Assembly (NCBI GenBank): GCA_026770585.1
Contig: MU647268.1
Coordinates: 5,508-28,151, forward strand
From: Baffinella frigidus
Lineage: Eukaryota; Cryptophyceae; Cryptomonadales; Baffinellaceae
DNA: 22,644 bases
Direction of reading: 5' to 3'
A program made the position numbers and the translations under genes. Below, one piece after another: positions 891 through 22,644 of the stretch (position 1 is the first letter of the stretch; each line of letters begins with the position of its first letter). The notes under the pieces are model-generated. The model did no database searches and had not been told where the DNA came from. It saw nothing but the letters and a program-made list of their open reading frames with translations.

Positions 891-910
891 CCGCGTGACC
901 GGTCACGCGG
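891..910. repeat. 20-bp perfect palindrome
   Basis: The sequence reads CCGCGTGACC GGTCACGCGG with no spacer. It lies in an otherwise featureless GC-rich stretch (640-1000) where I see no supported gene. Confidence 0.6.
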
Positions 911-1650: not shown

Positions 1651-3059
1651 AACCCAACAAGACGCGATCTTCACGAGCCTCTGCACTAGAGAGCTAAACG
1701 AGATCCGAAAGCAAAAATGCTTTCTCTGCAGATCCCTTCTACGGAACGGCATGTCGTTGGCAAATGTTGGCAGAAATTAAAATCTCAAGGACCTAAAGGA
1801 TCCGAAAGCAAAAATGCTTTTTCTGCAGATCCTTGCTTCGGAAGGGCGTGTCGTTGGGCTATGTTGGGAGCATTTAAAACCTAAAGGACCCAAATAGGGC
1901 AACCACGGTTGGAGCTCTTATGCTTCAACCATAGGATACCATGAGCCTCATACAGGCTGACTCGGGTTCGGTGTGTGTGCGAGTGTGGTCCCATTTTGGA
2001 TTAGCTCAAGCACCCAAAAAGAACCACCCTTCATCCTCTTTTCAGGAACCTAAAGGATGTGTGATCCTTACGTCCGTACATTTATGGAAGCCTCTACATC
2101 TCTGGTATCTGGCTGATCTTACCTTACACCCCCACACAACCCATCTCACCTTCTGGAATCGTGTTTCCTCTGGGGTATCCGTGGTTGACGCTCCTATGCT
2201 CCAACCATGGGATACCATGAGCCCCAGAACGGCTGACTTGGGTTTGGTGTGTGTGCGAGCCTGTACCTTTTTTGGTCAAACTCAAACACCCCAAGAGAAC
2301 CACCCTCTATCCCTTCTTCACGAGCCTCTGCACTGGAGAGCTAAATGCGAGCCGAAAGCAAAAAGCACTTTCTTTGCAGATCCTTTCTACGGAAGGGCGT
2401 GTCGTTGGGCCATGTTGGAAGAAATTAAGAAATGAAGGACCTAAAGGACGAGCCTCTGCACTGGAAAGCTAAATGCGATCTGAAAGCAAAAAAGCTTTCT
2501 CTGCGGATCTTTTCTACGGAAGGGCGTGTCGTTGGCATATGGTGGGAGCTTTTAAAACCTAACAGACCTCAAGGATCCATGTGAGAAAAGGGGGCTCAGT
2601 CCAGCCCGAGTAGGTAGGACCGGGGAGCTCATCCGTAGATCGTTCCCATCTCCTCAAGAGTGAGGCGGGCGTGGCTTTCGATGTCAGTGTAATACAAAGC
2701 ACCGAAGCACCATTGGCAACAAAAGAACCACCCTCTATCCCCTCTTCACGAGCCTCTGCACTGGAGAGGTAAATACGATCCGAGATCAAAAAAGCTTTCT
2801 CTGCAGATCCTTTCTGCGGAAGGGCGTGTCGTGGGGCCATGTTGGCAGAAATTAAAATCTAAAGGACCTAACGGCATCAAAGACACGGACTCCCGTATAC
2901 TGTGGTAAATCTTTACATTTGTTTGGTTTGACATCGGAGAAAACGTGGTTGGAGCTCCTCGTAACTGAACGATGGGATACTATGGGATACCATTATGGGG
3001 CTTCAGCCAAATTGTATGGTCCTGGTGTGTGTGAGAGTATGGAAACTTTTTGTATATAC

Positions 3060-3158
3060 CCCTTAAGTGGCCAGACAGTCAAATTTGACGGCCAAGAGGT
3101 CCTAGGCAGGTCCTAGGGCCCCACGGTAGGGCGTATGAGCCTACTGGCCACTTAAGGG
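3060..3158 (+). mobile_element. MITE family 1, copy 1
   Basis: This is a 99-bp non-autonomous element with termini CCCTTAAGTGGCCAG / CTGGCCACTTAAGGG. The inner palindrome AAATTTGACGGCC is followed by a core of CCTAGG and CCTACGGTAGGG motifs. It is about 85-95% alike to 13184-13282. Flanks are ATAC on both sides, against AT/AT at the other copies. It interrupts a repeat unit whose uninterrupted relatives elsewhere in 1-3.7 kb read 'ggtataccttcac', so insertion into a pre-existing repeat is directly visible. Confidence 0.85.
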
Positions 3159-3708
3159 ATACCTTTACACACCCGTTTGAAGACACCCTTGTGATCCGAA
3201 AGGACGCATGCCCTTTCTACAGAACAAGGTCCGGTGTCCGCCTATGGTGGCAGTTGAAAGAACCTAAAGGACCTAAATGACATCTGAGGTTCTGTAAATC
3301 CTTTCTAAGGAAGGGCGTGTCGTTGTGCTACGTTGGAAAAATCAAAACCTCAAGGACCTAAAGGAGGTATTCGTGATTGGAGCTCTTATGAGCTTAACGA
3401 TGGGACACCGTGGGCCTTCAGCCGACTTTAAGTCTTTTAGGTTCTTCGAGCTCCCAACATAGACGGACACTGGACCTTGTTCTGCAAAAAAGCCATGCTT
3501 CCTTTCGGGTCACATTCAGTCCTCTCGGCGCAAAGGTTTGCTGGTCCTGGTGTGTGTGCAAGTGTGAACCTGCTTGGTTTAACTCAAACGCCCCACGAGG
3601 ATCCCTTTAGCTGGTTTTTGCTGCGATCCTCTGCACCGGGGGGCCTGATATGATCTGAAAGGAAGTACAGTTTTTCTGCAGATAAGTTCCAGTGTCCGCC
3701 TGAAACAC

Positions 3709-3890
3709 CCACTAGCCTTGAGAGGTGGCTCAGGTGGCTCAAACTGTGCCCTGGAACTATTTTTCAAAAGTTAATTTTTGTAGCGAAAATGCGTCAACTT
3801 TTTGAAGAAGACCCATCAAAATCGAGGATCTGTCAAGATAAATCGAAAATGTTTCAGACCACTATTTGAGCCACCTCCCAGGGCTAGTGG
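3709..3890. mobile_element. Inverted-repeat element, 25-bp TIRs, 3' of the TLC gene
   Basis: The left end starts CCACTAGCCTTGAGAGGTGG and the right end is its imperfect complement (CCACCTCCCAGGGCTAGTGG at 3871-3890). The interior is AT-rich (3755-3855), unlike the surroundings. No open frame of note lies inside. It sits about 170 bp beyond the stop codon of the TLC-domain gene, so it may lie in that gene's 3' UTR or just past it. Confidence 0.75.
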
Positions 3891-4060
3891 ACCGGATGGC
3901 CTTTCTCAAGAACCGCCGGGAAACCTCCAGGACCAACGGATTCCCCGCCACGTGATGAAGATTGAAAATGGTTGGACACCCATACAAACACAAATATTTG
4001 GGTGTTGCAGAGCGGAATTCTGCCGTCGCGCGCGAGAAGAAACGGATTTTACTGAAAACA

Positions 4061-4451: not shown

Positions 4452-7027
4452 CCTCCCTCTCTCTCTAGGGTTTGGGTTTCAGATAATCCTGTCTATCTTG
4501 GAGCAAGGGTTTATGCGGACCTCAGGAATGGCAAGCGGGCCCATCCTGGGGTTGGTCCGCTTCGGGATAGAAAGGATAGACCCGCTTCGGGATGGAAGGG
4601 TTCCGTGTGGGGGAACACATGGCGGCTGCCCCTACACCCTAAAACCTCAACCTTGAACCCTCAACCCTCAACCCTCAACCGTAAACCCTACGGTCTCTTA
4701 CCACCAACCCTCACGGTGAGACCAAATCAACGAGTTCGTGGAGCCATTTCCCCCTTGCAGAGACCCCAGATCTGGGGTGTCTGATTTTAAACTCCCCAAA
4801 ACAACCCCCAAACCAAGGTTTCGGGAGTTTTAAAAGTGTTTTGCACAAAAGGTCGAAAATCGTCGATTTGGTCCGCTCGCGAGGGTCGGTGGTACCAGAG
4901 CAAGTTGAGGCCTTGCGAGGGGCTGCACGCGACGGCAACCCTGAACCCTGACCCCCAATCCGTCAACTGTCAACGGTCAAACCGAAAACGTAGAACCCCG
5001 TAACCCCCCGTAACCCCCCGTAAACCCTACGGTCTCTTACCAGAAGAGGTTAAGGCCTCGGGAGAGGGTGCACGCGACGAACTGTATGATCAAATGCACC
5101 TGCCCCTAAACCGTAAACCCTGCCGCACACTAGACTTCGCAGGATATTCTGACCAGACGTCTGGTCAAAGTATCGGTTAATAAGATGTGTTTGTACCGAG
5201 CAATTCTTAATTAGTACCACGAAAACAGAAGGACCGCTCTGGGAGGGGTCTATTACCAGAAGAGGTTGAAGCCTTGCGAGAGGGTGCACGCGACGACAGC
5301 CCCCCCAGTAAACCGTCAACGCTCAACGCTCAACGCTCAACGCTCAACGCTCAACGCTCAACGCTCTATGTTAAATGCTAAATGCTGAAGCGTAAAGCGT
5401 AAACCATGATCCCTGAGTTCGCTCACCAGAAGAGGTTGAGGCCTCGCGAGAGGGTGCACGCGACGAACTGCATGGTCAAATGCACCTGCCGCAGCCTGCC
5501 GAGGCGTTTCGGGTTTTGAGTTTCAGGGTTTCGGGTTTCGGGTTTCGGGTTTCGGAGCCTGCCGATGGGTGTAGGGTGTAGGGTGTAGGGTTGAGGGTTG
5601 AGGGTTGAGGGTTGAGGGTGTAGGGTGTAGGGTGTAGGGTTCAGGTTCAGGAGCGCCTTGTTTGTGGAGGCGAAAGGGGGGCGCATGGTGAGTTCCAGCA
5701 TCGAGCGTGGTTTCAAAATACTCTATACCACACGGTGTAGAGTATTTTGAAGGTGACGGATTGGGGGTCAGGGTACACGGTGTGTCTCTGTACAGAGAGG
5801 GGGAGGGTACAAGCGACGAACTGCAGACAAACTGAGAGTACAGACAGTCTCTGTACAGACAGGGGGAGGGTGCAAGCGACGAACTGCATGGTCAAATGCA
5901 CCTGCCGCAGCCTGCTGAAGCGTTTCGGGGTTTAGGGACGAGGATTTTTGGAGGATCGGACACCCCTGCACACTTATCTCAGAAAAGAGATTCTAAAATC
6001 CGTTTTCTCAAGTCAATTCCTACACAAATTCGTCAACTTATTCTTTTCTGTTCGAATAAATTGACAGATTTGAAGGGGAAATGACTTAAGAAAACGGATT
6101 TTAGAATCCCTTTTCTGAGATAAAGACCACGTCACTCCTGGTAGAAGGAGTGACGCGGTGGGAGGAGTGACGTGGTGTTCTAGAGCGTTTGCGGTAATTG
6201 TTGTCCGTTTTGGACGTACGGTTTTCCGGTTTTCCGGTTTTGAAAAGGGACTTATAGGACGTGACAAGGATTTTAAACGGTACCAAAAGGCGCAATTCTG
6301 GTACTATTTAAAATCCTTGTCACGTCCTATAAGTCCCTTTCAAAACCGGAAAACCGGAAAACCGTACGTCCAAAACGGACAACAATTACCGCAAACGCTC
6401 TACCATCACCTGACCACGGTTTGATTCCGATGTAATTCGCGTATCGGAATCAAACTGTGGTGAGGTACACCTGCTGCAGCCTGCCGAAGAGTGTTCATGG
6501 TTTAGGGTTGATGGTTTTATGTTTTATGTTTTATGGTGTATGGTTCAGGGTTCAGGGTTTCGGGTTTCGGGTTTAGGGTTTCGGGTTTCGGGTTTAGGGT
6601 TTAGGGTTCAGGGTTTAGGGTATAGGGTGTAGGGTTTAGGGTTCAGGGTTCATGATTTAGGGTATAGGGTTTAGGGTTTAGGGTTTGGGGTTTGGGGTTG
6701 AGGGTTCAGGATATAGGGTGTAGGATCAGGAAACAAAGTGCCTTGTTTGTCGAGACGAAAGCCTGATAACCGTTTCTCATTTTTGGAGGGAACCCTCCGT
6801 GTATATCGACGCCACCAAACTTATCCGGGGAAACCTATTTTTCTTTCATTTGATTCCAATGAAAATTACTACACAAATGCTTTAATTTTACTAGTAAGAA
6901 CGAGTTGTGTAGTAATTTTCATTGCCATCAAATGAAAGAAAAATAGGTTTCCCCGGATAAAAACCAACAAGGCATCTCTCTCTCTCCCTCTGGGTCCCAA
7001 AGACCAATGAGGAATCTATGTCTCGCG

Positions 7028-7104
<77 letters not shown>

Positions 7105-10100
7105 TCTCTCGATCGCTCGCTCGCTGGGACTGGCGCGGTACCGTTGGGGCTGCAACGTCATCCCTCTCAGCAAAGGAACGTAATTTATCTCTCCGGAAAG
7201 TCATTTCTCTCCAGGACAGGAAAGTCATTTCTCTCCAGGACAGGAAAGTCGTTTCTCTCCAGGACAGGAAAGTCATTTCTCTCCAGGAAAGGAAAGTCAT
7301 TTCTCTCTCTGGGAAGTCATCTCTCCCTGGAAAGACATCACCCTCTGTCTGTGGGGCTGGCGCGGTACCGAGTTGGTACCGAGTCTTGTTTGTAGAGACG
7401 AAAGCCTCATAACCGTTTATTGAGGGAACCCTCCGTATACGTCCTCACGAACAAGCCAATAAGGCATATACGTCTCTTTCTGTGAGGATGGGGTAGTACC
7501 GACTTGGCTGTGCCATGATGTAGCCTGGCAGCATCTGTTTAGGGTTTATTGTTTAGGATTTGGGATTTAGGGTCCACACGGTGGGCTACGAGGGTTTCGG
7601 GGCCCCTAGATCTAGCGGTAACGTGACCAAATTTGCATTAGAAAATCCTGAAAGTTAACTGCCCACAGGGTAAGTTGGCTTTTGTTGAAAGGTTCGTAGT
7701 CCACTGTGCGGTTAGGGTTTAGGGTTTAGGGTTTCGGGTTTAGGGTTGAGGCATTCCTGAAGGTCTCGCTAGCTTGCAACGCGCGTTTCTCTCGCCATCG
7801 TGGGGGCAGGAAACGTAACTAGCCATGTATTGGCCAGTCGCGAGGTTGGAACACCTTATCCTGGCACAAATATTTACAACCCCACATATAAATAGGACCC
7901 TCTAGCATTCTCGAAGCCGGACACCTAGGAGAAACCGTCTCGGAAATCACTTTTTCAAAGTACTTCGTGGTACGATTTACAATCTAAAAGTACGCGCTCG
8001 TGCGAAACGGCCTCAACGCTAGCGCAAATCTGACATGGTTTTCACGAGTGAAGCCCTTCAAGGTCGCAATCGCGTCCCGGTCGCGTCCCGGACACGATTG
8101 CGACCTTGAGGCCGTTTGGTCAAAGGATTCCTACGGCCTAAGGCAGGCAATTCCGTAGGCTAAACTACCCAAATTTCGGGCAGTTTCTCTACGAGGGTGC
8201 AAGACTGGTCCGCGTTGATCGGAGACGGAGACCCATACGATCCCGACCCCGATTTCCCCTTAGTTAAGCTATCGGAAAGTACCGTCACGTCCATATTCTA
8301 GTACAAAGTGGACACACCAGTACTAATTTAAAACAACAAAAAACTAATCAAGTCGGGGCGGGAAACCTGGCAGCCGGAAACTTTACCGAGGCGGGCCCGT
8401 ATTAAGGCTGATAGAGAGATTGATAATTTATTGCCGAACAACCAGCGTCAGCGCCGCACATGCTGCGCATTGTGCCACTTACTGTACCCCGTGTCGGCCG
8501 CTCATACGAGCATTTTCCGGATGGATTCTAAGTCCACATCCTACATTAAGGCTGGTAGACTTTTGGATCACGCATCTCTAGGCTGGAGAGTAGTAAATCG
8601 AAGAAGGTTCAAACCTTGCAGCCGGAGACCCACACGATGCCAGTCCCAATCATGATCCGCGAGAGGAAGAATAGCACCGCGAACGCTGTCTGCGAAAACT
8701 GTGTCGGGGACGGGGGGGTTAGGGTTTAGGGTTTGGGGTTGAGGCTTTGGGGCTGAGGGTTTGAGGTCTGGGGTTTGGAAAGGGGGTGAGCGCGCTTGCG
8801 GTAATTCTTGTCCTATTTTCGTGGAGGAAAATTCAAGAAATTCGAGGTCGTTTGTACTAGAGACCACTCGATGCGGTTTCAAGCAGCCCAGTTTTACCCA
8901 GGCAGAGCTGCATCTTGTAGACGGGGGAGTCCTTCTGGGTGCGGTACTACCAGCGAACGTTCGAGAAAGGCTCCGACAACATTTCCCCTAAACCCCCGAA
9001 CCCTGAACCCCTCAACCCCTTAACTCTTCACCCCTTAAACCCCTTAAATCCAAGCACCCAAACAAACCCGAAAACCTTGAAAACCCCACCTCCCTACCCA
9101 CCCTTCCCCTACCCACCTTGTAGACCACAGAGTCCCTCTGGGTGCGGTACTGCCAGCGGGGGTTCTCGCAGGACTGTTCCGTCTACACTCTACTCTAGCT
9201 CCGCCTCAGTAAATCTGGGCCCGCCATAAAATACATGTAGAGCAGGACATCTAGTACAGAAGTTCACCTACAATGCATTTATAGCGGGCCCAGTTTCACT
9301 GACCTTGTAGACGGCGGAGTCCTTCTGGGTGCGGTGCTACCAGCGAACGTTCGAGAAAGGCGCTGACAACTTTCCCCCTCAACCCCTGAACCCCTCAACC
9401 CCTGAACCCCTGACCCCCTAAAATCCAAGCACCCAAACAAACCCGAAAACCTTGAAAACCCTACCTCCCTACCCACCCTTCCCCTACCCACCTTGTAGAC
9501 GGGGGAGTCCTTCTGGGTGCGGTACTGCCAGCGGAGGTTGAGGAAGGGCGTGGACAGCTCCTCGATGAGGAAGAGGAAGTGGTAGGACGTGCAGCACCGA
9601 TCCAGCAGCCCTGAGAGGTGAGGTGGGTGGTTAGGTTTCGCTAACCCCCCCTCCCCTACACCGAGCACCGGTCCAGAAGCCCTGCACGGTTCGGATTTAG
9701 GGGTTGACTTTGGGGTTCGGGGTTTGGGGTTTAGGCCGTACGGTTAGAGGTTGGGGGGCGGGGTTCCCACAGTGGCTCGGCATCAGTGTGCCGATTCACG
9801 ACGCCCGCGTTCGAAGCTGTGGGTCCTCTTCCCACGCCACATTGGATGTGAGGGTAGAATGTTTTCAACTGTATGAGGAAACGGGTGTGAACTTTTGAAA
9901 ACCTTGCCTTGAGGAGGAATTGACTTTTGGCGTCCCCTTCCAAGAATCTGGCGTGGCCGTAGAGCCGCATTGCAGAGGGTGGTTTCTTTCGCTCGAGACT
10001 CCCGCGGTGTTTTCTACGAACTCGTACACGCCATCGCAGTCCACTCGAGGCTGGAAGAGGGAGTATTTTAAATGTGAATTTTTAAATTTAGTACCAGTCA

Positions 10101-10561
10101 CGGGCAGGCGTGGTCACGTATCTGACAGATTTCTGTCAGATACGTGACCAAACGCCCCTTTTGGTGTGAAAATTACAACACCCCCTTTTTTTTCTTTACT
10201 TGTAAAATAATCCCTGTTTTAAAATAGTCACATTTCTAGCCTCGAGTGGGTATTTCGCAAGTCGGATGAACGGCTGTGGGATGCTCGCGCTGGAGAGTAA
10301 CAGAGAGGAATTTCAGAAGAAGGAGCCACCAACCCTCACAGTCTGGGAAAATCGGGAAAAATGGCTCAAAAAATCCCCTTGAAGGCCGTCGGATTCCAAC
10401 GGCCTCCAAGGGGATTTGGTGTTTTTGACTTTTTCGATTTGCCCAAGTTGTGAGGGTTGGTGGAGGGCGGTCACCGAGGAAGAAGAAGCCCCCGATGATG
10501 ATGTGGTGTGCCACCATGTCACTCTCGTACATCTGCTCAGTGCACCCGTTCAGTCAGGAAC

Positions 10562-10594
<33 letters not shown>

Positions 10595-12128
10595 GTCTCT
10601 CTGTCTCTCTGTCTCTCTGTCCTCTCTCTCTCTCTCTCGTGTTCTCGCTGATCAGTTCCAATGTCAACTCCCCTGAAATGTGGTTTCCTCCGAGTTCACA
10701 CCAAGAGCCAGCGCAACACCCCCCCCTTTCCCACGCCCTCCCCCTTGTATGCAAAATGGACTCTGCGTACACCGCAACACCCCCCCCGACCTGCACCGCC
10801 AACCAGGGTCGTTGGATGTCTGGAATGGAGCCCGTTCTATCCGGCGCGAACGGCGCGTAGTTTCATAGGGAAACTCCTGGAAAGTTCGGTAGGTTCCCTA
10901 CGGATTTAGGTAGGACCTACCTACCGTAGGCCGTAGGGCTCCTAGGACCAAAATATCCTAGGATTTTGGCCTACGGTAGGAGGTCCTAGGCAACGCCGTA
11001 GGAGAAACTACCGAACTTTCCAGGAGTTTTACGACTAAGTTGGTAAGTTGATCACTTTTCTCCAGGCTTGATCGTAATCTGTCACTCTCGAACATCTGCA
11101 TCATTGAGAGAAGTTTGTTGGATAGCTATCCGTTTGCGGAAAATTTTTGCGGAAAATGTTGGCCACCTTGCGATTTCCAGACTTTGAGATTTTGGGACTT
11201 TTCAAACATTTGTCAAGTTTCGATTCTTTTCGAGGTCCGAATCGTGTCAACTCAAGAGAGACCCGCTCTACAACGGTTTAAACAGACACTCCTGGTACAA
11301 ACGAAACCCCAAACTCCCAAAATCTCGTTCAGGGTTTCGGGTTTTGGGTTTCGGGGTCAGACATCCGTGTGTATCTGCATCATGACATGATGATCAGTTT
11401 GGGGTTTGGGGTTTGGGGTTTGGGGTTTGGGGTTGGGGTTTGGGGTTTGGGGTTTGGTGTTGGGGTTTGGGGTTTGGGGTTCAGGGTTTAGGGTTTGGGG
11501 TTTGGGGTTTTGGGTTTTGGGTTTTGGGTTTTTGGTTTTGGGTTTTGGGTTTGGGTTGTGGGGTTTGGGGTTTGGGGTTTGGGGTTTGGGGTTTGGNNNN
11601 NNNNNNNNNNNNNNNNNNNNNNNNNNNNNNNNNNNNNNNNNNNNNNTGGGGTTTGGGGTTTGGGGTTTGGGGTTTGGGGTTTGGGGGTGAGACATCCGTG
11701 TGTATGAGCATCATGGCCAGGTCGTTGATGAAATATCCCACCTGCGCGAAAGTTGCCAGACAGATTGTAAGTCACCCGCCGGCAACTTTTGCGAGAACGC
11801 TGTGAATGATACCTCGAGCGCCAGCACACGCGTTTCGCTTGACGCGAGTCATCAAGTCAAGCGAAGGTTCATGGTCGAAGCAAACCCGAAGTTTCGAGAA
11901 AGCACAAAAAGCCCAGCGGAACTCGCGTGCCGAAGCTTGACTTGATTGACGCGCGTTCTCGTGGGTTTAGGGTTTAGGGTTTAGGGTTTAGGGTTTAGGG
12001 TTTGGGGTTTAGGGTTTAGGGTATAGGGTTTAGCCTAAACCCTAAACACTCTTCACGTGACTCTCTCATGGGTTGGGGGGTTGGGTTTAGGGAGTCGAGT
12101 CTGGGGTAACAGGGCTCAGGGTGTCGGG

Positions 12129-12163
<35 letters not shown>

Positions 12164-14834: not shown

Positions 14835-15242
14835 CCTCGCACCCTTCCTTTCAGCGCCCCCTCTCGCGGCGCAGCTCACCCCCTATCCGCCGCCGCCGCG
14901 CCGCCGGCTCCTCCTCTCAGAGCTCCGACGTAATTCCGGCAAATCCGGAACGCGACGAAAAGGACCCACTTCCGGAGATGAAGAACACGCACCGCCCCTG
15001 CTGCCCCGACACTGGAGGCGCCTCGGGCGGGACCCTCAAGCGGCTGGCACGCCGGCGTCTGCGATGGTCCAGGATCACGGCGATTTGCAAGGGCCGATTT
15101 GATTTGATTTATGTATTACTATTGTTGGCTTCTTCGACACACTCTCGCAACCGCGCTGCAACAACTTCACGAAGTTGTTGCAACTTCACGAAGTTGTTGC
15201 AGCGCGGTTGCGGGACAAAGACGTTTTGAATTTGTCTGCTCC
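14835..15242. promoter_or_regulatory. Putative divergent promoter region
   Basis: About 410 bp separate the TLC start codon (minus) from the secreted-protein start codon (plus). The region is GC-rich (14880-14940 has CCGCCG runs) and unlike the telomere-like introns. It contains the 67-bp palindrome at 15146-15212. No TATA box is convincing. Confidence 0.4.
15146..15212. repeat. 67-bp perfect palindrome made of a tandem repeat
   Basis: Its ends are CGCAACCGCGCTGCAACAAC and its complement. The centre is GTTGCAACTTCACGAA repeated so that CTTCACGAAGTTGTTG occurs twice, giving several alternative hairpins. It ends 30 bp before the ATG of gene 2, so it would lie in the 5' UTR or core promoter. 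Confidence 0.9.
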
Positions 15243-15638
15243 ATGGCGCGACACTTGTCTCTGGGCGCGTGCGCGGTGGCGCTTCTGGTCTGTGCACTCT
15301 CGCCGGCCGACGCATGCTGGCCATCGGCCCCTTCAAACTTGTTTGGCGTGCGGGGGGGGGAACTGGCGCAGGCGGTATTCGCAACCGCGCTGCCCTCTTC
15401 TGTCCAGTGCAACGTCGCAGAGCAGCCCTGCGCACTCATCGACGAGGCGCTGGGTAGCTTCGTGCGCAACGTCGCCGGCGCCGTCAAGCCCCCGCACGTC
15501 TCGTCGGGTGAGTGGCTGCGCGCGTCCAGCCTCTTCCTCCGCCCTTCCACGGAAATCGCCGACTGTGAGATGGGCCTCTGCGGCGCGAACCTCGGCGAGC
15601 TGTCTGGCGAGCTCCCTCTGAGGAAGAACTCTGCCTAG
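15243..15638 (+). CDS. Predicted small secreted protein, 131 aa
   Basis: The frame runs from ATG 15243 to TAG 15636-15638. The start has a good eukaryotic context (ccATGG). The first 24 residues (MARHLSLGACAVALLVCALS, then PADA) form a textbook signal peptide with an n-region Arg, a hydrophobic core and a likely A-x-A-type cut before CW. The mature part is about 107 aa with five cysteines (CW..., C-N-V-A-E-Q-P-C, C-E-M-G-L-C). Codon use is strongly G/C at third positions, as in the exons of genes 1 and 3. I do not recognise a family. A frame-open ATG exists further upstream (15111), but that start would translate the palindrome and bury the signal peptide. An in-frame GGTGAGT (15508) resembles a donor, so the gene could continue by splicing instead of ending at the TAG. 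Confidence 0.6.
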   Translation: MARHLSLGACAVALLVCALSPADACWPSAPSNLFGVRGGELAQAVFATALPSSVQCNVAEQPCALIDEALGSFVRNVAGAVKPPHVSSGEWLRASSLFLRPSTEIADCEMGLCGANLGELSGELPLRKNSA

Positions 15639-15735
15639 ACGCGCGGGTCCACCCCTCCTTCCATGGAGGGGCTGTAGGTGGTCCTGCCGCCATGTCCCTT
15701 GTGGCTCGTTGCAGAGTCTCAGAGCACGGGCAGGT

Positions 15736-15740
15736 TGTAA
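15736..15740 (+). terminator. Possible TGTAA polyadenylation signal
   Basis: TGTAA lies about 98 nt after the stop of gene 2. This pentamer is the usual polyadenylation signal in green algae, but five bases occur by chance often. Confidence 0.2.
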
Positions 15741-15958
15741 ATTAGAGCAGGTGGGAGGCAAGCAGCGTAGGCACGTCAGCAAGTGACTGTACAATATCTA
15801 TAAACACAAGTGTCTCGGGGCTGAGCTGGCACAGGACCTGCGCACAGGACCGCCGCACCAGACCTGGCACTCAGCAGATGAGAGCCCTTGAGGAGATGCG
15901 CCTGCCGGAAGCTTTGTCGCGGCGCGCCCCGTTTGCAGTGCGCGGGGAGATCCCTTTG

Positions 15959-16002
15959 CACACGGCTTGAAAAAAAACGTCGACCCTGCACACACCGCGA
16001 GC
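15959..16002 (-). repeat. Diverged copy of TLC exon 1
   Basis: About 44 bp match exon 1 from 'gctcgcggtgtgtgcagggt' to 'caagccgtgt'. The copy lacks the ATG codons, and a run of eight T replaces GGTGTTTTT. It lies on the far side of the secreted-protein gene, so that gene sits between exon 1 and its echo. Confidence 0.75.
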
Positions 16003-16012
16003 CGGGACGAAG

Positions 16013-16032
16013 CCAGCGAGTCGACTCGCTGG
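16013..16032. repeat. 20-bp perfect palindrome
   Basis: It reads CCAGCGAG TCGA CTCGCTGG, followed by a second TCGACTCGCTGGTTTCT half. Confidence 0.7.
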
Positions 16033-16145
16033 TTTCTCGACTCGCTGGTTTCTTCCCGGCCAAATAGAGGGGGGGGCTAGGTACATGAACGTCTCCAAGG
16101 CGGGGAGGCAGGCTGAGTGCTGGTACAAGGGCACGTCATTTTTTT

Positions 16146-16387
16146 GGACTCAGTGCTCCGCCGCTCTTTCTGTCGGCAGTAGCAGGGTCTGCGTGTACGT
16201 GTCCTCGCATCATTCACGCACCGCAGTTGGAATGGTCCGCAGAATCCTATCGGTAAGTAGGCATTGGTCTACCGTGGGGTCCTAGCTAGGGCGGTATGTT
16301 CTATGGATTTCGAGGTGACAGGATGTCAGGAAACGTACAGGCTGGCCCAGCTTCTGCCGACAGAAAGAGCGGCTGAGCACTGAGTCC
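16146..16387. mobile_element. Inverted-repeat element, 34-bp TIRs
   Basis: Its ends are GGACTCAGTGCTCCGCCGCT... and ...AGCGGCTGAGCACTGAGTCC. Arms of about 34 bp have a few mismatches. It is 242 bp in all with no coding content. Confidence 0.85.
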
Positions 16388-16439
16388 CTCTCTGTCAGGT
16401 CAACCCATTTGCTGGGTTTGCCGTACATCCGGTGTTCAG

Positions 16440-16616
16440 GTACTTATCCGATATCGAATAAAAATATCCACTTTCTGCCTCCGCTAAAGTTGATTATCGC
16501 CTTGAAATTGTAACCACTTTCAATTTGACACGCCAAAGTTGTTTATTTTCAGGGTGATAATCAACTTTAGACGTGGCAGAAAGTGAATATTTTTATTCGA
16601 TATCGGAGATAAGTAC
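16440..16616. mobile_element. Inverted-repeat element, about 60-bp TIRs
   Basis: Its ends are GTACTTATCCGATATCGAAT and the complement ending at 16616. Arms of about 60 bp include 'aaaaatatccactttctgcc'. The AT-rich centre carries a second CAAAGTTG / CAACTTT pairing. Confidence 0.9.
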
Positions 16617-16672
16617 GGTGCGAATCAGCAAACCCTGAAGAGCTCAAAGGAGGCAGCCTGCATGTACCTGCG

Positions 16673-17014
16673 CAGGGGTTGCTCGTGAGTAAGGACACAC
16701 ACCGCCCTAGGATCCTAGAGTACAGGTACAGGGGTTGCTCGAAATGAAGGACACTCCGCCCCTCGGATGGTGACATGCTCCTAGGACAGGCTCAGGGGTT
16801 ACTCGAAATGATGGACACGCACCGCCCCTACAGGGTTACTTCGCTCATGCGAAAACGCCCCCCCCCAGGACCCTACAGTAGGCCTATGCCTAGGGGCCTA
16901 TGGTGGTCCTAGGGGGGGGGGCGGTTTCTTGTGAGCGAGGTACCCCTGTACGGTGATGCTATTCTTTTAGGAAAGGCGCAGGGGTTGCTCGACATGAAGG
17001 ACACGCACCGCCCC
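16673..17014 (+). repeat. Four dispersed copies of CAGGGGTTGCTCGAAATGAAG unit
   Basis: Copies start at about 16673, 16729, 16792 and 16979, each about 36 bp and ending in CACACCGCCCC-like sequence. They resemble the left end of the complete element at 17368-17488 and may be solo ends or deletion relics of that family. Confidence 0.75.
16831..16948 (+). mobile_element. MITE family 2, copy a
   Basis: Its ends are CAGGGTTACTTCGCTCATGC and GTGAGCGAGGTACCCCTG, with TA on both flanks. The core carries a C9 / G9 pair around GGCCTATGCCTAGG. It is about 118 bp. Confidence 0.9.
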
Positions 17015-17027
17015 GAGGGTGGTGCTA

Positions 17028-17216
17028 CAGGGATATCTGGGTTACAAAAATCCGGAACTTAAGAACCTGCACCGGGTTTGGGGCCCGCGTGTTCTTAATT
17101 TTGTGCAATAGGGTTGACTTGAACTCGCGTTTAGTCAACCCGCAGGTAGTAATTTAAGAAAACGGACAACCGACCGAGGCTCGACCAAGGGTGTTCTTGT
17201 AGCCTGGATATCCCTG
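17028..17216. mobile_element. Inverted-repeat element with CAGGGATATC ends
   Basis: Its ends are CAGGGATATCTGGGTTAC and GTAGCCTGGATATCCCTG, flanked by TA. Inside are GTTGACTT...AGTCAAC and AACTTAAGAA / TTCTTAA pairings. It shares the CAGGG start and TA flanks with families 2 and 3 but no interior. Confidence 0.8.
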
Positions 17217-17218
17217 TA

Positions 17219-17360
17219 TGCTACGTTGGTGTTCCTGTGGGGGGGGGCGTGTGTTTAAATTTGAGTGACCTCTATAACCCTAGGACCACCCTAGGGTCCT
17301 AGATACGCCCACATGTACAGTAGTGTGCGTGTGTGTTCTGAAATTCCAGGTACCCCTGTA
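17219..17360. mobile_element. Decayed family 2-like element
   Basis: It has a clear right end (AGGTACCCCTG before TA at 17359-17360) and a CCTAGGACCACCCTAGGGTCC core. The left end is not recognisable. Confidence 0.45.
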
Positions 17361-17367
17361 CAGTGTA

Positions 17368-17488
17368 CAGGAGTTACTCGAAAGTAAGGCCCCCCACGCC
17401 GTAGGAATCTACAGTGCATGAAGCCTATACCTGTGGGTCTAGGACCGCCTTACGAGCGGCGGCAAACCTTATTTTCGAGTAACCCCTG
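17368..17488. mobile_element. MITE family 3
   Basis: Its ends are CAGGAGTTACTCGAAA and TTTCGAGTAACCCCTG, flanked by TA. Its interior CCTACAG/CCTAGG vocabulary resembles families 1 and 2. Confidence 0.8.
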
Positions 17489-17561
17489 TAAGCACACCTC
17501 TCTCTCAAGTGCACCATACGCACACCCGCACCCCCCCCACACCCGCCACCACGCACAGTAT

Positions 17562-17661
17562 CCCTCAAGTGCCCAGTAGAGGCTCGTACGCCCTACGGTA
17601 GGGCCCTAGGACCTGCCTAGGGCGAGTTAGGGTGAATATTCGCCCTATGGGCACTTGCGGG
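17562..17661 (-). mobile_element. MITE family 1, copy 4 (opposite orientation)
   Basis: Its ends are CCCTCAAGTGCCCAG and GGGCACTTGCGGG, flanked by AT on both sides. The asymmetric core (CGTACGCCCTACGGTAGGGC, then CCTAGG) is reversed relative to copies 1-3. It is the most diverged copy. Confidence 0.8.
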
Positions 17662-17686
17662 ATAAATCCACGCCGGCGACTCCCAC

Positions 17687-17803
17687 ACGGGTACCTCGCT
17701 CATAAGAAAGCGCCTCCCCCTAGGACCCTACAGTAGCCTTATGGCTGAAGCCCTATGGTGGTCCTAGGGGGGCGGGCGGTTTCTTATGAGCGAGGCACCC
17801 CTG
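17687..17803 (+). mobile_element. MITE family 2, copy b
   Basis: The left end is eroded (cacgGGTACCTCGCTCATAAG); the right end GAGCGAGGCACCCCTG is followed by TA. Confidence 0.8.
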
Positions 17804-17809
17804 TACTGC

Positions 17810-17892
17810 AGGACCCTAGGGGGGTAGGCCTATGCCTAGGGCCCTATGGTGGTCCTATGGGGGGGCAGTTTCTTATGCGCGAGGCACCCCTG
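17810..17892 (+). mobile_element. MITE family 2, copy c (left end missing)
   Basis: It begins within the core (GGACCCTAGGGGGG) directly after copy b and ends GCGAGGCACCCCTG-TA. This suggests head-to-tail deletion or template switching between two copies. Confidence 0.75.
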
Positions 17893-17984
17893 TAAGCGGG
17901 GTCTCACACGGGACAGCGACTCCACACACGCGACAGCCTCTCACGCAACAACCTTCACTGGTCCTGCGTACAACGACAGGCGGA

Positions 17985-18200
17985 CTATGCCGTCTCCTCT
18001 GCCTCCGCGTCCCCGTCTGCGCCCCCCTCTGCCTCTGCCGCCGGCGCCGCCTCTTCCTCCCCACCCTCCTCCCCACCCTCCTCCCCACCCTCCTCCCCAC
18101 CCTCCTCCCCACCCTCCTCCCCACCCTCCTCCCCGCCCTCCTCCCCGCCCTCCTCCGCAGGGGGTTCCAAGGAGTCAGCCGTCGCCTGGTACTCCTCGGC
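17985..18200 (-). CDS. Coiled-coil gene, last exon (acidic tail, stop)
   Basis: It holds 71 codons and TAG at 17985-17987. The acceptor is 'cacactgcgcag'. It starts AEEYQATADSLEPPAEEGG, then the 12-bp minisatellite-encoded E-E-G-G array, then an Ala/Glu/Asp tail ending A-E-A-E-E-T-A. The echo of its 5' end at 18572-18601 supports the acceptor. Confidence 0.8.
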   Translation of the reverse strand, partial: AEEYQATADSLEPPAEEGGEEGGEEGGEEGGEEGGEEGGEEGGEEGGEEEAAPAAEAEGGADGDAEAEETA

Positions 18201-21200
18201 CTGCGCAGTGTGTTGGGGGTTTAGGTTTGGAGGTTTGGAGTTTAGGGTTCAGTGTGTTTGGTGTTTAGGTTCTAGGGTTTTAGGGGTTTTAGGTATTTCG
18301 GGGTTTAGGGTGAGAGTGGTTTGGGGGTTAGGGTGTAGGGTGTAGGTTTACAGGGGTACCTCGCGCATAAGAAACTGCCCCCCCCAAGGACCCTACTGTA
18401 GGCCTATGCCTAGGGCCCTATGGTGGTCCTAGGGGGGGGGGCGGTTTCTTATCCCTTAAGTGACCAACGGGCGAATAATCGCCCGTGGAAGCCCTAGGCA
18501 GGTCCTAGGGCCCTACGGTAGGGCGTATGAGCCTACTGGTCACTTAAGGGATAAGTGAGGTACCCCTGTAGGGAATCCGATGTCGCATGGTACTCCTCCG
18601 CCTAGCTCGTTTTTGTTTAGGGTTTAGGGTTGGGTTGCGGTTCCGCTCGGTACACCACGGAGGACACTCTAAAAGTCAATTATTGGGTTAGTTTTTAGGA
18701 AACACGCCTAGTCAGCAATTTTTGGTCACGTTACACCGGATATCCGGGGCTGGGGTTCTCCGTAGTCTTTTGAGTGGAGGGTTTAGGGTTTTGGGGTGTC
18801 AGGGGTTTAGGGTTTGTCGCCTGGCGCGACCGCGTGATGGAACCCCCACGCTTGGAGCACTACAGGGGTACCTCGCTCATAAGAAAACGCCCCCCCCGAA
18901 GACCACGACAGGGCCCTAGGCATAGGCCTACTGTAGGGTCCTAGGGGGAGGCGCTTTCTTGTGAGCGAGGTACCCCTGTATCCCACGCTACATGTAGTCC
19001 GCACAAAGCGAGGGGCGTCAGATGAAGCCCGAGGGGCGTGAGATGACGGAAGCGAGGGGCCTCCGATGATGAGGCGGGCAGGGTCCCTGGGGATGTCTTC
19101 TCCGCGCGGCACACGGGGGAATACATATTCGGAACAGACTCACAGGAGAAGAGATGCGAGGAGACGCGCATGATGCACTGAAATGACGTTAGCGGCTTCA
19201 TCGAGATGACTTTACTCAACTGTGGGGGGGGAGGCCTCCCCTCCCACCAGTTGAGAAACCGCCCCCCCCCTAGGATCACCATAGGACCCTAGGCATAGGG
19301 CTGCTGGAGGGCCCTAGGGGGAGGCGGTTTCTTGTGAGCGAGGTACCCCTGTATGGGAGGGGGGGCAGCACCTGCGTTGTCTTCTCTTCAGCCGCCGCCT
19401 TGAACTCCTCCGACACCAGATCCATCTGCGAATGGCACATTTGGCGTCAGGGAACGCACCCAGGGAATCGAAACTCCTCCGACACCAGATCCATCTACAG
19501 GAGCACATGCGGCGTCAGAGAATGCACCGCGGAAATCAAGACTGGGTCCTGCCGAAAGCCAGTAACGACCACTGATACAACACGATTCTGTCAACTCCTC
19601 GAACACTAGACCCATCTGCGAACGTCACATTGGGGAATGCACCCAGGGAATCGAGGCGATTCGGCGTCAGGGAATGCACCCGGGGAATCGAGGCTGCGTC
19701 CCACCGACGGGCAGCAACAACCACACGTACAAAATTGTTCTTTGAGTTTTCGGGGGCCTTTGGGGAGGGCAATTTCAGAAACCCTCGGGTTCAGGGTGTC
19801 AGGTTCAGGGTGTAGGGTTCAGGGTGTAGGGAGGACCCTCTTGGCGACCACCTCTTGGGCGTGCGCGTTGGCGACGTCCAGCGCCTTGTTCACCTTCTAG
19901 GGTCTAGAGTCTAGGGCCAAGGGTTTGGTTTCTAGTTTCTGGTTTCTGGTTTCGGATTTCGGGGCTCTGTTCTAGGGCATAGGGTGTACGTTTTGGGGGG
20001 GGGTTCAAAAGACCTTCTTCGCGACCACCTCCTGGGCGTGCGCGTTGGCGACGTCCATCGCCTTGTTCGCGTTCGCGATCATCGCCTCGGCCTCCTTCAC
20101 CTGCGCCCATTGGTATGACGCGAGACCAGAATCAATCGAACGCGCGGTTTTGTGGTATCGTACGGGTGTGGTTGCGACGTCAAGCGCCATCATCACATCC
20201 GCCTCCTTCACCTCCTGGGTTGGGAGTTTGCTGGATTTGCGGTGGGGTTTGGGGTTAGGGGTTTGGGGGGCGGGGGGGGTTGGTTAGGGGTTTGGGTTTT
20301 GGGGTTAGGGGTTTGGGGGTTTATGGGTTTTGGGTTAGAGTTTACGGGTTTTGGGTTAAGGGTTTAGGGTTTGCGCCTCTGTACAATCATACAATGCGTG
20401 TATTTACGCGCTCACACACCCACGGGTACGGCTCGTAAACGCCAGGCAGACGGGAAACAGCTGCCCCTGCCAACGAGGTTCTGCTGGAAGAGCAGCACTT
20501 TCGTCTTGAACGATAACTGAATCAGTCCCCTCTTCAGCGTTTTCATGTAATTAGAAGGCCTAAGTAAATTTACTATGCCCTTACTAATTTCTCCCACTCC
20601 CATTGAAAAGGACCTGATTCAGTTATCTTCCGAGATGAACTTGCTGGCTCTGCCTCAGTCGGGTTGGCTGACTATTCTCAAGGTGGCATGCTAGGTGTCT
20701 ATCCGATCAACGAACGCTACTTTCAACACTACAGACACACAAATGATCAAGTGATATTTCTCGGTGGCCATCTTTGCGAAACCTGCCCTACAAGGATCAG
20801 GAGTGAGAAAGGACCTTCTCGTTGGCCTCGACGATGCCCGCCTCGGCCGTCTTGTGCTGCCCCCACCGTCCTCTAACCCTCGCGGTATAAAACAACAGGA
20901 ATCAAGAGCGATAAGCCCCAAACCAGGCCATGCCGCTCCTTCATCACTTCAGGGTTCAGTGTTCATGGTTCAGTGTTCATGGTTCAGTGTTGAGTGTTGA
21001 GTGTTGAATGTTTAGGGTTTAGAGGCGGGCGGCACCTTCTCGTTGGCCTCGACGATGCCCGCCTCGGCCGTCTTGTGCTGCTCCCACCCGTTCTGGATCA
21101 GCGCCACCGACTCCTGCTGCAGCTGCATCGCCTGTTGGAAGGAGCACTCGTGTTTAGGGTTTGGGGGCTGTGGTCTAGGGTCTAGGGTCTAGGGTCTAGG

Positions 21201-22544
21201 ATCTAGGGTCGAGGGTCTAGGGTCTGGGGTCTGGGGTTTAGGGTCTAGAGTGTAAGGTCTAGGGTCGGGTGTAGGGTTTAAGGTATCCCAGACGTTCTGG
21301 ATGAGCGCCGCTGACTCCTTCTGCAGCTGCATCGCCTGTTGAAAGGAGCACTCGTGTTTAGGGTGTGGGGGCTAGGGTGTAGGGTGTAGGGTGTAGGGTG
21401 TAGGGTGTAGGGTGTAGGGTGTAGGGTGTAGGGTGTAGGGTGTAGGATGTAGGATGTAGGGTGTAGGGTGTAGGGTTTAAGGTATCCCAGCCGATCTGGA
21501 TGAGCGCCGCTGACTCCTTCTGCAGCTGCATCGCCTGCGGGACGCATTGAGGGTTTAGGTTGTGGGGCGTTTGGTTTAGGGTTAAGGGTGTGGGGTGTTG
21601 GGTTTAGGGTTTAGGGTGTGGGGTGTTGGGTTTAGGGTTTAGGGTTTAGGGTTAAGGGTCATGGCCTGCGGGATGCAGCACGCTGGTTTAAGGGTTGAGG
21701 GTTGAGGGTTGAGGGTTGAGGACTGAGGGTTTGGGTGTTGGGTGTAGGGTGTTGCAGAAGCAGGAACACTCGGTTCTGGTCTCGAGATAAATCGAGAAGA
21801 GGAAACAGAACAAGGGCCAAGGAGGGCCGGACGCACTTTCTAGCTCTGTCTCATTCTATTTGGGCTCACCAATCTGGCGAGCCCGGGATGTTTTGATTCT
21901 TTTCCACTCCAAAGTTGACGAATTTGAACTGGAAATCCAGCATGTCAACTTGAGAACAGTCTGTCAGTCAACGCGAGTGACCACGCCAAGAGTTTAGGAA
22001 GGGGTCGCCAAAAGTCAATTCCTCCTCAAGGCAGGGGTTTCAAAGGTTAACATGCGTACCCTGGTACACAATCAAAACCCCAACCCCCTCGTCGAATCTG
22101 GCGAGTGAGGCAGAGCTAGAGCTTCTTTTTCTGCTCCTGCGCCGCGCTACGACCAGATGGAAAGGCGCCGGGGCGGAGCACTGCTCCTGCGGGGGGCAGG
22201 CTACGTGGCGTTAAGTTACGCGCATAACTTAAGCCTCGCGCCTGGCCCAGCGCTCCGCTCCATGCGAGTGAAATCAAGAAGAAGAAGAAGAAGAAGGAGG
22301 GGCAAGGAGTTCTTGCACGGTCGTACAAGAACTCCCTCTAACCAGGAAGGATCCGTACACGAACTCCCTCCAACCACGAAGTATATTCCTCTTAATTGTG
22401 TCATAAAATTCTTTTCTAGAAGGCGAGTACCTTCTTGTTCTCCTCCCGGGCAGCGATGCGCTCCATGCGCGCAAGCATGTGCTGCTTGTGCGCAAAGTCG
22501 ATCCGCTCGTGCGGCGTCATCTCCACCACCACTGGCTCCTCCTC
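17985..22544 (-). CDS. 3' part of a coiled-coil-like protein with acidic Gly-Glu tail (5' end outside window)
   Basis: Five exons, 3' to 5' on the map: 17985-18200, 19372-19425, 20014-20100, 21036-21131, 22431-22544. They sum to 564 nt: 187 codons plus TAG. All junctions are GT..AG and phase 0. The chain is Ala/Glu/Lys/Gln-rich with few Gly or Pro until the last exon (for example HKQHMLARMERIAAREENKK, HKTAEAGIVEANEK, VKEAEAMIANANKAMD), as expected for a long alpha-helix or coiled coil. It ends in about eight E-E-G-G repeats and an acidic Ala/Glu tail. I do not recognise the family; a cytoskeletal or scaffold role would be a guess. Some exons may be missing between those found, and alternative use of the duplicated exon ends is possible. 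Confidence 0.7.
18057..18156 (-). repeat. 12-bp coding minisatellite (E-E-G-G)n
   Basis: About eight units of CCTCCTCCCCAC (plus strand) encode Glu-Glu-Gly-Gly. The last units carry a C-to-G change (CCCGCC) that is silent. Copy number is likely to vary. Confidence 0.9.
18205..18350. repeat. Degenerate GGTTTAGG minisatellite
   Basis: It consists of irregular TTTAGGG-like units filling the intron 5' of the last exon; further pieces lie at 18614-18640. Confidence 0.85.
18351..18568 (+). mobile_element. MITE family 2, copy d, interrupted by MITE family 1
   Basis: Its ends are CAGGGGTACCTCGCGCATAA and AAGTGAGGTACCCCTG with TA flanks. The right arm is split by the 98-bp element at 18453-18550. 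Taking that element and one AT out gives a right arm of the same length as the other family 2 copies. Confidence 0.95.
18453..18550 (+). mobile_element. MITE family 1, copy 3 (nested)
   Basis: It is 98 bp, CCCTTAAGTGACC to GGTCACTTAAGGG, flanked by AT on each side. The TIR changes GGCC to GACC/GGTC in a compensating way. The core matches copies 1 and 2. Confidence 0.95.
18572..18601 (-). repeat. Echo of last coiled-coil exon, 5' part with acceptor
   Basis: It encodes A-E-E-Y-H-A-T-S-D-S after 'agctag', against A-E-E-Y-Q-A-T-A-D-S in the exon. It lies upstream, directly next to the MITE at 18351-18568. Confidence 0.8.
18863..18978 (-). mobile_element. MITE family 2, copy e (core inverted)
   Basis: It has complete CAGGGGTACCTCGCTCATAA and GTGAGCGAGGTACCCCTG ends and TA flanks. 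The internal GGGCCCTAGGCATAGGCC order is the reverse of copies a, b and d. Confidence 0.9.
18985..19110. repeat. Short tandem units 'cgaggggcgtcagatga'
   Basis: Three or four diverged units of about 22 bp ('cgaggggcgt', 'gatgaagcc') lie in a coiled-coil gene intron. I see nothing else here. Confidence 0.6.
19254..19351 (-). mobile_element. MITE family 2, copy f (one end truncated)
   Basis: The right end GTGAGCGAGGTACCCCTG-TA is intact; on the left only AGAAACCGCCCCCCCC remains. It ends 21 bp before the exon at 19372. Confidence 0.85.
19372..19425 (-). CDS. Coiled-coil gene, fourth visible exon
   Basis: It holds 18 codons, MDLVSEEFKAAAEEKTTQ, phase 0/0. The acceptor is 'cattcgcag' and the donor GTGCTG. 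Two echoes of its 5' end lie upstream. Confidence 0.75.
19471..19494 (-). repeat. Echo of exon 19372-19425, 5' part (1)
   Basis: It reads 'atggatctggtgtcggagga' after 'cctgtag', identical to the exon over 24 bp. Confidence 0.85.
19593..19615 (-). repeat. Echo of exon 19372-19425, 5' part (2)
   Basis: It reads 'atgggtctagtgttcgagga' after 'ttcgcag'; it is diverged. Confidence 0.8.
19837..19893 (-). repeat. Echo of exon 20014-20100, 3' part with donor
   Basis: It encodes V-N-K-A-L-D-V-A-N-A-H-A-Q-E-V-V-A-K-R and is followed by GTCCTC where the exon has GTCTTT. Confidence 0.85.
20014..20100 (-). CDS. Coiled-coil gene, third visible exon
   Basis: It holds 29 codons, VKEAEAMIANANKAMDVANA then HAQEVVAKK, phase 0/0. 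The acceptor is 'atgggcgcag' and the donor GTCTTT is weak. Confidence 0.75.
20171..20214 (-). repeat. Composite echo of exon 20014-20100
   Basis: It encodes V-K-E-A-D-V-M-M-A-L-D-V-A: the exon start joined to its middle with about 18 bp deleted. It lies upstream of the exon. Confidence 0.75.
20225..20372. repeat. GGGTTTGGGGTTA minisatellite
   Basis: It consists of irregular G-rich telomere-like units. Similar blocks are at 19790-19830 and 19895-20005. Confidence 0.85.
20512..20627. mobile_element. Inverted-repeat element, about 17-bp arms
   Basis: Its ends are GATAACTGAATCAGTCC and GGACCTGATTCAGTTATC. The interior is AT-rich. Confidence 0.75.
20645..20720 (+). repeat. Partial copy of the CTAGCTCTGTC element family
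   Basis: The stretch 'ggctctgcctcagtcgggtt' to 'gactattctcaaggtggcat' to 'gctaggtgt' matches 13820-13880 and 14266-14325. Confidence 0.6.
20815..20869 (-). repeat. Echo of exon 21036-21131, 3' part with donor
   Basis: It encodes W-G-Q-H-K-T-A-E-A-G-I-V-E-A-N-E-K and is followed by GTCCTT. It lies downstream of the exon. Confidence 0.9.
21036..21131 (-). CDS. Coiled-coil gene, second visible exon
   Basis: It holds 32 codons, AMQLQQESVALIQNGWEQHK then TAEAGIVEANEK, phase 0/0. The acceptor is 'ctccttccaacag' and the donor GTGCCG. It is the only copy holding both exon halves; partial copies lie on both sides. Confidence 0.8.
21282..21334 (-). repeat. Echo of exon 21036-21131, 5' part with acceptor (1)
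   Basis: It encodes AMQLQKESAALIQNVWD after 'ctcctttcaacag'. It shares about 20 bp of intron upstream of the acceptor with the true exon. Confidence 0.9.
21481..21534 (-). repeat. Echo of exon 21036-21131, 5' part with acceptor (2)
   Basis: It encodes AMQLQKESAALIQIGWD after 'tcccgcag'. It ends with the same GATACC as echo 1, so these two share a breakpoint. A minimal third echo ('catcccgcaggccatgac') lies at 21659-21676. Confidence 0.9.
21841..22110 (-). mobile_element. CTAGCTCTGTC-type inverted-repeat element
   Basis: Its ends are CTAGCTCTGTCTCATTC and GTGAGGCAGAGCTAG. The interior shares 'ccaaagttgacgaattt' with the copy at 14264-14376 in inverted orientation. A further segment (about 22005-22050) matches 9896-9940 inverted. 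Confidence 0.7.
22303..22338. repeat. Small hairpin
   Basis: GGAGTTCTTG is complemented by CAAGAACTCC around 'cacggtcgta'. It is followed by a second diverged 'cacgaactccctccaacca'. It is just 3' of a GAA-repeat at 22275-22300. Confidence 0.65.
22431..22544 (-). CDS. Coiled-coil gene, first visible exon
   Basis: It holds 38 codons from E-E-E-P-V-V-V-E-M-T-P-H-E-R to REENKK, then donor GTACTC. A possible acceptor is 'gtgcag' at its 5' side. Beyond that the sequence is only the C/G homopolymer, so the exon might extend further. Confidence 0.7.

Positions 22545-22549: not shown

Positions 22550-22644
<95 letters not shown>
22550..22644. other. 95-bp poly-C at window end
   Basis: An uninterrupted run of C reaches the end of the window directly upstream of a coding exon. 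No comparable homopolymer occurs elsewhere. It is more likely a base-calling or assembly artefact than biology. Confidence 0.9.

Follow-up and report, generated by a model that had tools for sequence, protein, structure and literature searches.

Copies of exon ends in neighboring introns as probable leftovers of short tandem duplications across splice junctions

Within-gene exon duplication copies whole exons together with both of their splice sites. In the potato RdRp gene, a duplication crossed an intron-exon boundary and made a new intron (PMC4974935), and tandem duplication of AGGT is accepted as a route of intron gain (PMC3443670). Short duplications can also accompany telomeric insertions: in the part of PMC7215372 dealing with insertion at staggered breaks in the horse, direct duplication of the flank alone occurred at 3 of 66 loci, and at 2 more together with other changes. 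Introners, by the excerpted accounts in PMC9860276 and PMC7789003, spread sequence of their own and have target duplications of 3-9 bp where these are present.

We analyzed a stretch of 22,644 nucleotides, here called the window (G000:C885:5508-28151; G+C content, 53.8%), from an assembly of 382,457,362 bases over 1364 contigs. Its TLC gene and its coiled-coil gene, both on the minus strand, have partial copies of exon ends, referred to as echoes, in their introns. As in within-gene exon duplication, exon sequence is copied in introns, but only one copy here, the second copy of exon T8, is complete. As in the potato gene (PMC4974935) and in tandem-duplication intron gain (PMC3443670), an exon end with its splice site is directly duplicated, together with intron in some of the copies, and an exon piece of the upstream copy has turned intronic. 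Unlike the potato gene, for which that outline gives one event and one new intron, there are dozens of copies in several genes, most of them ending at the splice site. Telomere-like arrays lie beside short direct duplications, as at interstitial telomeric insertions (PMC7215372, in the part cited above), but the arrays here are degenerate 7-mers that half of the spacers lack, and duplication occurs regularly instead of at 3 of 66 loci. The introns also hold inverted-repeat elements, two of them at a decoy GT, which recalls introners and the hairpin intron elements of Amoebophrya (PMC9860276 and PMC7789003, as excerpted); unlike introners, the echoes are stretches of ~20-100 bp from an exon of the same gene, and the common sequence at many introns that marks introners was seen in 0 of 1030 comparisons. 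Among the literature matches listed, a set with most subscription journals outside its scope, we found no account of systematic exon-edge copies in introns. The preliminary description had gone further: it knew of no named mechanism that would predict a two-sided layout. That view does not hold. If the exon is to stay intact, a tandem duplication that spans exon and intron can only deposit its partial copy in the intron, splice site included; this gives the layout, and a new mechanism is unnecessary. A duplication across an intron-exon boundary is described in potato (PMC4974935).

Copies were detected by comparing the window with itself and then aligning each exon to the rest of the window. 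The TLC exons were predicted from AG/GT borders and from the Pfam TLC match of the joined exons (PF03798; E = 1.9e-13), and their numbering differs from that of the preliminary description. The TLC exons and their copies are as follows.

13423..13482, minus strand: exon T1, 20 residues (AG/GT borders, Pfam TLC match)
13064..13104, minus strand: copy of the T1 3' end with donor GT, downstream; 35/41 identical
12701..12727, minus strand: exon T2, VMAPEFMVE, only 27 nt
12197..12250, minus strand: exon T3, 18 residues
11694..11741, minus strand: exon T4, 16 residues
11363..11384, minus strand: copy of the T4 3' end with donor GT, downstream; 20/22 identical, continuing into the intron
11080..11106, minus strand: weak copy of the T5 5' edge with AG, upstream; score 27 versus its own shuffle maximum of 23
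10475..10532, minus strand: exon T5, 19 residues
9661..9682 (borders approximate), minus strand: weak copy of the T6 5' edge with AG, upstream; score 26 versus its own shuffle maximum of 20
9492..9610, minus strand: exon T6, 39 residues
9304..9371, minus strand: copy c1 of the T6 3' end with donor GT; 58/67 identical, followed by the inverted-repeat element 9206-9302
9117..9164, minus strand: copy c2 of the T6 3' end with donor GT; 42/48 identical
8914..8970, minus strand: copy c3 of the T6 3' end; 52/56 identical, donor lost (ATG)
5866..5901, minus strand: copy of the T8 5' end with AG, upstream; 35/36 identical
5803..5825, minus strand: inner T8 piece without an exon edge, upstream; 21/23 identical
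5427..5485, minus strand: exon T8, 20 residues, presumed to be the real copy
5257..5296, minus strand: copy of the T8 3' end with donor GT, downstream; 38/40 identical
5041..5099, minus strand: whole second copy of T8 with AG and GT, downstream; 55/59 identical, a possible second exon
4896..4934, minus strand: copy of the T8 3' end, downstream; 33/39 identical, with the inverted-repeat element 4699-4894 at its GT

Past the splice site, the T1 3' copy continues to match the intron at 13 of 14 bases. All three T6 3'-end copies lie downstream, and c2 also carries ~85 bp of intron (135-bp alignment). The T8 5' copy at 5866..5901 brings 32 bp of intron with it, making 68 bp at 94% with the intron included. 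The whole T8 copy shares no intron flank on its 5' side and a weakly similar one on its 3' side; the 25-nt intron sequence directly after it resumes beyond the element at 4699-4894 (4679-4703 equals 5018-5042, 100%). No echo of the T2 or T3 edges was found in the test of adjoining introns. Three related copies round the frame STNKALL lie at 5641-5680, 6742-6803 and 7385-7439, one of which may be the TLC exon missing between T6 and T8.

The coiled-coil gene matched no Pfam family above the cut-off. Its exons and their copies, with exons C2 to C5 from exon-versus-window alignment, are as follows.

22431..22523 (start provisional), minus strand: exon C1; 3'-edge score 25, borderline
21485..21534, minus strand: copy b of the C2 5' end with AG, upstream; 44/50 identical, same inner junction as copy a
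21286..21335, minus strand: copy a of the C2 5' end with AG and intron flank, upstream; 44/50 identical, 88-bp alignment
21036..21131, minus strand: exon C2
20815..20867, minus strand: copy of the C2 3' end with donor GT, downstream; 52/53 identical
20185..20211, minus strand: copy of the C3 5' end with AG, upstream; 23/27 identical
20014..20100, minus strand: exon C3
19839..19897, minus strand: copy of the C3 3' end, downstream; 54/59 identical, the match ending 2 nt before the exon end
19593..19654, minus strand: second copy of the C4 5' unit, by alignment
19472..19543 (exon part 19472-19494), minus strand: directly tandem copy of the C4 5' end and intron, by alignment
19372..19425, minus strand: exon C4
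18572..18603 (borders approximate), minus strand: copy of the C5 5' end with AG, upstream; score 30-31
17990..18200 (lower border approximate), minus strand: last exon, C5, with the stop

The C2 3' copy shares no intron (7 of 14 bases, chance level), and copies a and b of the C2 5' end differ from each other despite their common inner join. The tandem C4 copy overlaps the real unit (19403-19475) by 4 nt, AGTT. Exon copies in neighboring introns, as the preliminary description reported, are thus borne out for T1, T4, T6, T8 and C2 to C5, and weakly for T5; its wording "almost every exon" is too broad, given that T2 and T3 have none and C1 is borderline.

The remainder of the window is rich in other repeats. 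A dispersed repeat (CTACGGAAGGGCGTGTCGTTGG and its neighbors) recurs many times in positions 1-3700, where local echoes occupy 39% of unmasked 30-mers. A ~240-bp repeat is present as two direct copies 440 bp apart (13677-13912 and 14119-14356) and as an inverted piece at 21840-21966. An open frame on the plus strand at 15243-15635, which begins MARHLSLGACAVALLVCALS, is signal-peptide-like by eye and has no Pfam match. The window ends in a run of 95 C (22550-22644), and the local-echo count found no readable 30-mers outside either window end. Pattern scans for the repeat elements of the window in viral contigs, and a search for a TLC relative, found nothing; from the intron-rich genes and the 7-mer arrays, we would say that the source is a eukaryote, probably a protist. 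Cymbomonas, for which G+C contents of 51.4-52.5% are published, was considered as a candidate source.

To describe the state of the copies, we compiled the 26 that reach an exon edge, a table that omits copies falling short of the edge (for example, C3 3') and the T8 3' copies. The splice dinucleotide is kept in 25 of them (AG in 15/15 5' copies, GT in 10/11 3' copies), in agreement with the earlier report that splice signals are preserved. We had considered the surviving AG and GT as a sign of selection and dropped the idea, retention being about what 7% decay predicts. Divergence is ~7% per site overall and ranges from 0 to 22% among individual copies. In a separate codon count over 26 copies, differences at codon positions 1, 2 and 3 number 26, 28 and 57 over 393, 396 and 390 sites, corresponding to 46 synonymous and 65 nonsynonymous changes and a pN/pS of 0.42; this count used a superseded choice of one exon (P5, below) for 2 of its copies. 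For a neutral copy beside a constrained exon, a pN/pS of ~0.5 is expected. The observed value is near this, which indicates that the copies decay like junk.

We evaluated side and orientation in four genes: the two in the window, a PSMD3-like gene and a dynein heavy chain gene. The predicted side was an upstream copy for 5' edges and a downstream copy for 3' edges. At a score of at least 26, 24 of 50 edges had a copy on the predicted side and 2 of 50 on the wrong side, with the side partly built in for the window and for the PSMD3-like stretch because the full-length copy was chosen there as the real exon; six edges whose exon ends are not fixed were left out. By inference, the two wrong-side cases are a whole-exon copy and the 5' part of an exon within its own 3' copy. 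By gene, the predicted side accounts for 7/14 edges in TLC, 6/8 in the coiled-coil gene (13 of 22 for the window, in the adjoining intron), 7/12 in the PSMD3-like gene and 4/16 in dynein; raising the threshold to 30 leaves 22 of 50. None of the 50 edges had an inverted copy. The echo count that the preliminary description had proposed, run here on the small scale of four genes, gave echoes for 24 of 50 edges in their own introns and for 0 of 1030 comparisons when the introns came from the other three genes, and the ordered layout that it described is confirmed. With 60 shuffles per edge of the window genes, shuffle maxima were 20-26 versus scores of 26-60 for echoed edges; the weak T5 and T6 5' edges exceed their own maxima and lie near the overall largest, 26. 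Intron 30-mers were echoed at 93 of 557 (17%), roughly one-third of the rate for exon edges, with array, inverted-repeat and exon copies excluded and both members of a pair counted. This ~3-fold gap indicates that duplication is unevenly spread, although an exon under constraint is a stable reference that favors detection of echoes, and some of the gap may have that origin.

The echoes are not peculiar to the window, and the pattern recurs in unrelated genes. Twenty preset places in the genome were sampled, of which 6 contained sequence and 14 only N. One of the six, L014, contained the gene that we tentatively recognize as PSMD3-like (26S proteasome). Exon P3 of this gene has two long 5'-edge copies upstream (2347 and 2605) and six short ones, two of these identified by eye, in the intron L014:2045-2823; 7 of the 8 follow AG (around GAACCTGCAGCAAGC), and the copy at 2347 starts inside the exon. 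A tandem copy of P6 overlaps its source by 5 nt, AAGAC. For exon P5, an initial choice of 3970-4030 was rejected when 3751-3796 proved to match better, 3970-4030 being its downstream copy. Dynein genes were found by a profile search for the dynein motor domain and picked without regard to echoes. In the dynein heavy chain gene on contig C23, whose exons were defined by profile or reading frame, all four echoes lie on the predicted side with their splice site. One intron copy in this gene (G000:C23:1299550-1299605, L039) has the end of exon e7 joined to the start of e8 without an intron (13 of 14 bases match the start of e8), and it looks like spliced or ancestral sequence. A dynein gene on C13 has one exon with two 3'-edge copies downstream, the donor being mutated in one. 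A dynein gene on C65, with large exons, yielded no local direct repeat over 4.4 kb (G000:C65:241189-245642; three overlapping loci, L031, L032 and L034). Local direct echoes were present in 10 of 10 stretches with sequence, at 13-39% of unmasked 30-mers. In L018, L022, L028 and L030, where no gene was named, 22-39% of unmasked 30-mers were echoed; inspection of L016, L018, L022 and L028 found no nameable exons among the output listed.

In 8 of the 26 copies, the match goes on past the splice site into the intron of the same exon, with at least 11 of 14 bases shared, and 3 more align with indels. The other 15 have only chance similarity to that intron past the splice site, T6 c3 among them lacking even the GT, and exon identity can be high despite the unshared intron (52/53, 59/60). 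In 6 of 18 tests, the flank did not resume within 700 bp (the C2, T6 c3 and C3 3' copies and the C3, T6 and P6 5' copies), and the other tests gave direct sharing or marginal or array-like matches; the 5'-side test of the whole T8 copy was set aside, its search range containing the flank of the real exon. Only the dynein e7-e8 copy continues into a neighboring exon, the remaining 25 copies matching it at 2-7 of 14 bases, which is chance level. Junction microhomology, a hallmark of microhomology joining, was read at the two directly tandem copies, C4 (AGTT) and P6 (AAGAC); spacers separate the junctions of the others. Both tandem copies have one exonic and one intronic breakpoint.

Many introns are filled by degenerate TTTAGGG-like 7-mer arrays. 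The spacers measure 46-380 bp (median, 152). Scored for 7-nt periodicity, 15 of the 30 are array-free and 6 are at least half array, with array making up 28% of spacer bases; the earlier characterization of the spacers as telomere-like 7-mer arrays therefore applies to half of them. The window also contains inverted-repeat elements, ~100-220 bp in size and for the most part palindromic from end to end, at these positions.

4699-4894: inverted-repeat element
5974-6123: inverted-repeat element
6181-6402: inverted-repeat element
6821-6960: inverted-repeat element
9206-9302: inverted-repeat element
10326-10463: inverted-repeat element
10871-11029: inverted-repeat element
16440-16616: inverted-repeat element
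18861-18980: inverted-repeat element

Two of these elements sit exactly at a decoy donor GGT (T6 c1, which is one of the 15 copies with no intron similarity, and the T8 copy at 4896..4934, which is outside the table), and insertion there accounts for some of the sharp outer edges. Over 14 stretches, five of which were fetched by a telomere-like pattern, the distances of 177 local direct pairs peak at 197-206 bp (15 pairs; p ~0.02 by jitter), which is suggestive, no more, of a nucleosome-sized step.

Taken together, these data indicate that the exon copies are probably neutral leftovers of repeated short tandem duplications reaching from the end of an exon into the adjoining intron. The two breakpoints of each duplication would lie on opposite sides of the splice site, one exonic and one intronic, and the duplications may have arisen by microhomology-mediated end joining or replication slippage. 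Duplications that broke the exon would be discarded by selection; the others would be expected to do no harm, since a whole exon is left where it was. Exon definition holds that exons are recognized as pairs of splice sites, and a partial copy with a single site would presumably be ignored by the splicing machinery. Array growth and inverted-repeat elements could later have separated the copies. Supporting this reading are the direct orientation of the copies, their position on the intron side, the splice dinucleotide, their decay, the microhomology at tandem copies, their presence in unrelated genes and the commonness of local duplication. The earlier suggestion that introns grow by repeated duplication across splice junctions, leaving decoy splice sites behind, is accordingly supported in several genes.

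Other origins would leave some of the same traces. If telomere-like repeats had been added at staggered breaks in or near exons, fill-in of the ends would have duplicated the edge on both sides of the array. The TTTAGGG-like arrays in many introns, several of them joined directly by copies, fit this, as does the horse precedent of flank duplication at 3 of 66 loci (PMC7215372, in the part cited). That same outcome is, however, the minority one at the published loci (PMC7215372, same part), half of the spacers hold no array, and in four 5' copies without shared intron (P3 b, P6, C3 and T6) the flank of the decoy resembles array by eye more than that of the real exon does, whereas a single insertion would give the opposite; we regard this origin as quite improbable. 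The telomerase-mediated repair invoked in the preliminary description for the spacers is likewise unneeded, since 15 of 30 lack an array and duplication is common where no gene is named (22-39%), but given the horse precedent it may have played a part. The joining of different versions of a gene, whether alleles or paralogues, would explain why exons agree and introns differ: similarity stops at the splice site in 15 of 26 copies, and 8 of the nine 5' copies of this kind have a CAG or TAG of their own, as once-working acceptors would. The differences are nevertheless not mainly synonymous (46 versus 65 nonsynonymous over the 26 copies of the codon count), and such joining appears unlikely.

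Introns might also have been born by tandem duplication of an uninterrupted exon holding AGGT, with the echoes as remains. The model is established (PMC3443670, in the portion drawn on here), and the dynein e7-e8 copy places an exon-exon junction inside an intron (13/14), but it alone of the 26 copies reaches a neighboring exon, and most copies are single-edged, unlike the product of the model, so we strongly doubt this origin. An assembly error that placed pieces of two haplotypes consecutively could be suspected from the N-only sequence at 14 of the 20 sampled places and from the lack of a readable 30-mer beyond the window ends. It is very improbable: joins inside exons pass into array or other DNA without N, C2 copies a and b differ yet have one common join, and the divergence of individual copies spans 0 to 22%. 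Finally, that the copies are working alternative exons is extremely improbable. In its favor, the second copy of T8 is whole and bordered by both AG and GT. Against it, the other copies are single-edged, some have stops or have lost the donor, and the pN/pS of 0.42 fits neutral decay.

Several results count against the simple form of the tandem-duplication origin that we favor. A plain duplication should carry intron with it, and 15 of 26 copies have no intron similarity; duplication is unevenly spread (24/50 versus 93/557); the C65 dynein gene has no repeats; and a genomic duplication spanning the intron would not give the e7-e8 copy. It is still odd that the copies are so dense and that their outer edges stop so sharply at splice sites. 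A rather unlikely extension is that splice junctions are preferred sites of copying by local repair, where exon ends would be cut at the splice site and copied outward repeatedly, introns growing as trails of decoys in ~200-bp steps and new introns becoming possible.

Duplications of this kind are usually inferred from single cases. Here there are dozens of differing age beside conserved exons, and the size, junctions, age and fate of cross-junction duplications can be counted in one genome. With many partnerless decoy sites within a few hundred bases of real ones, these introns also constitute a natural test of exon definition.
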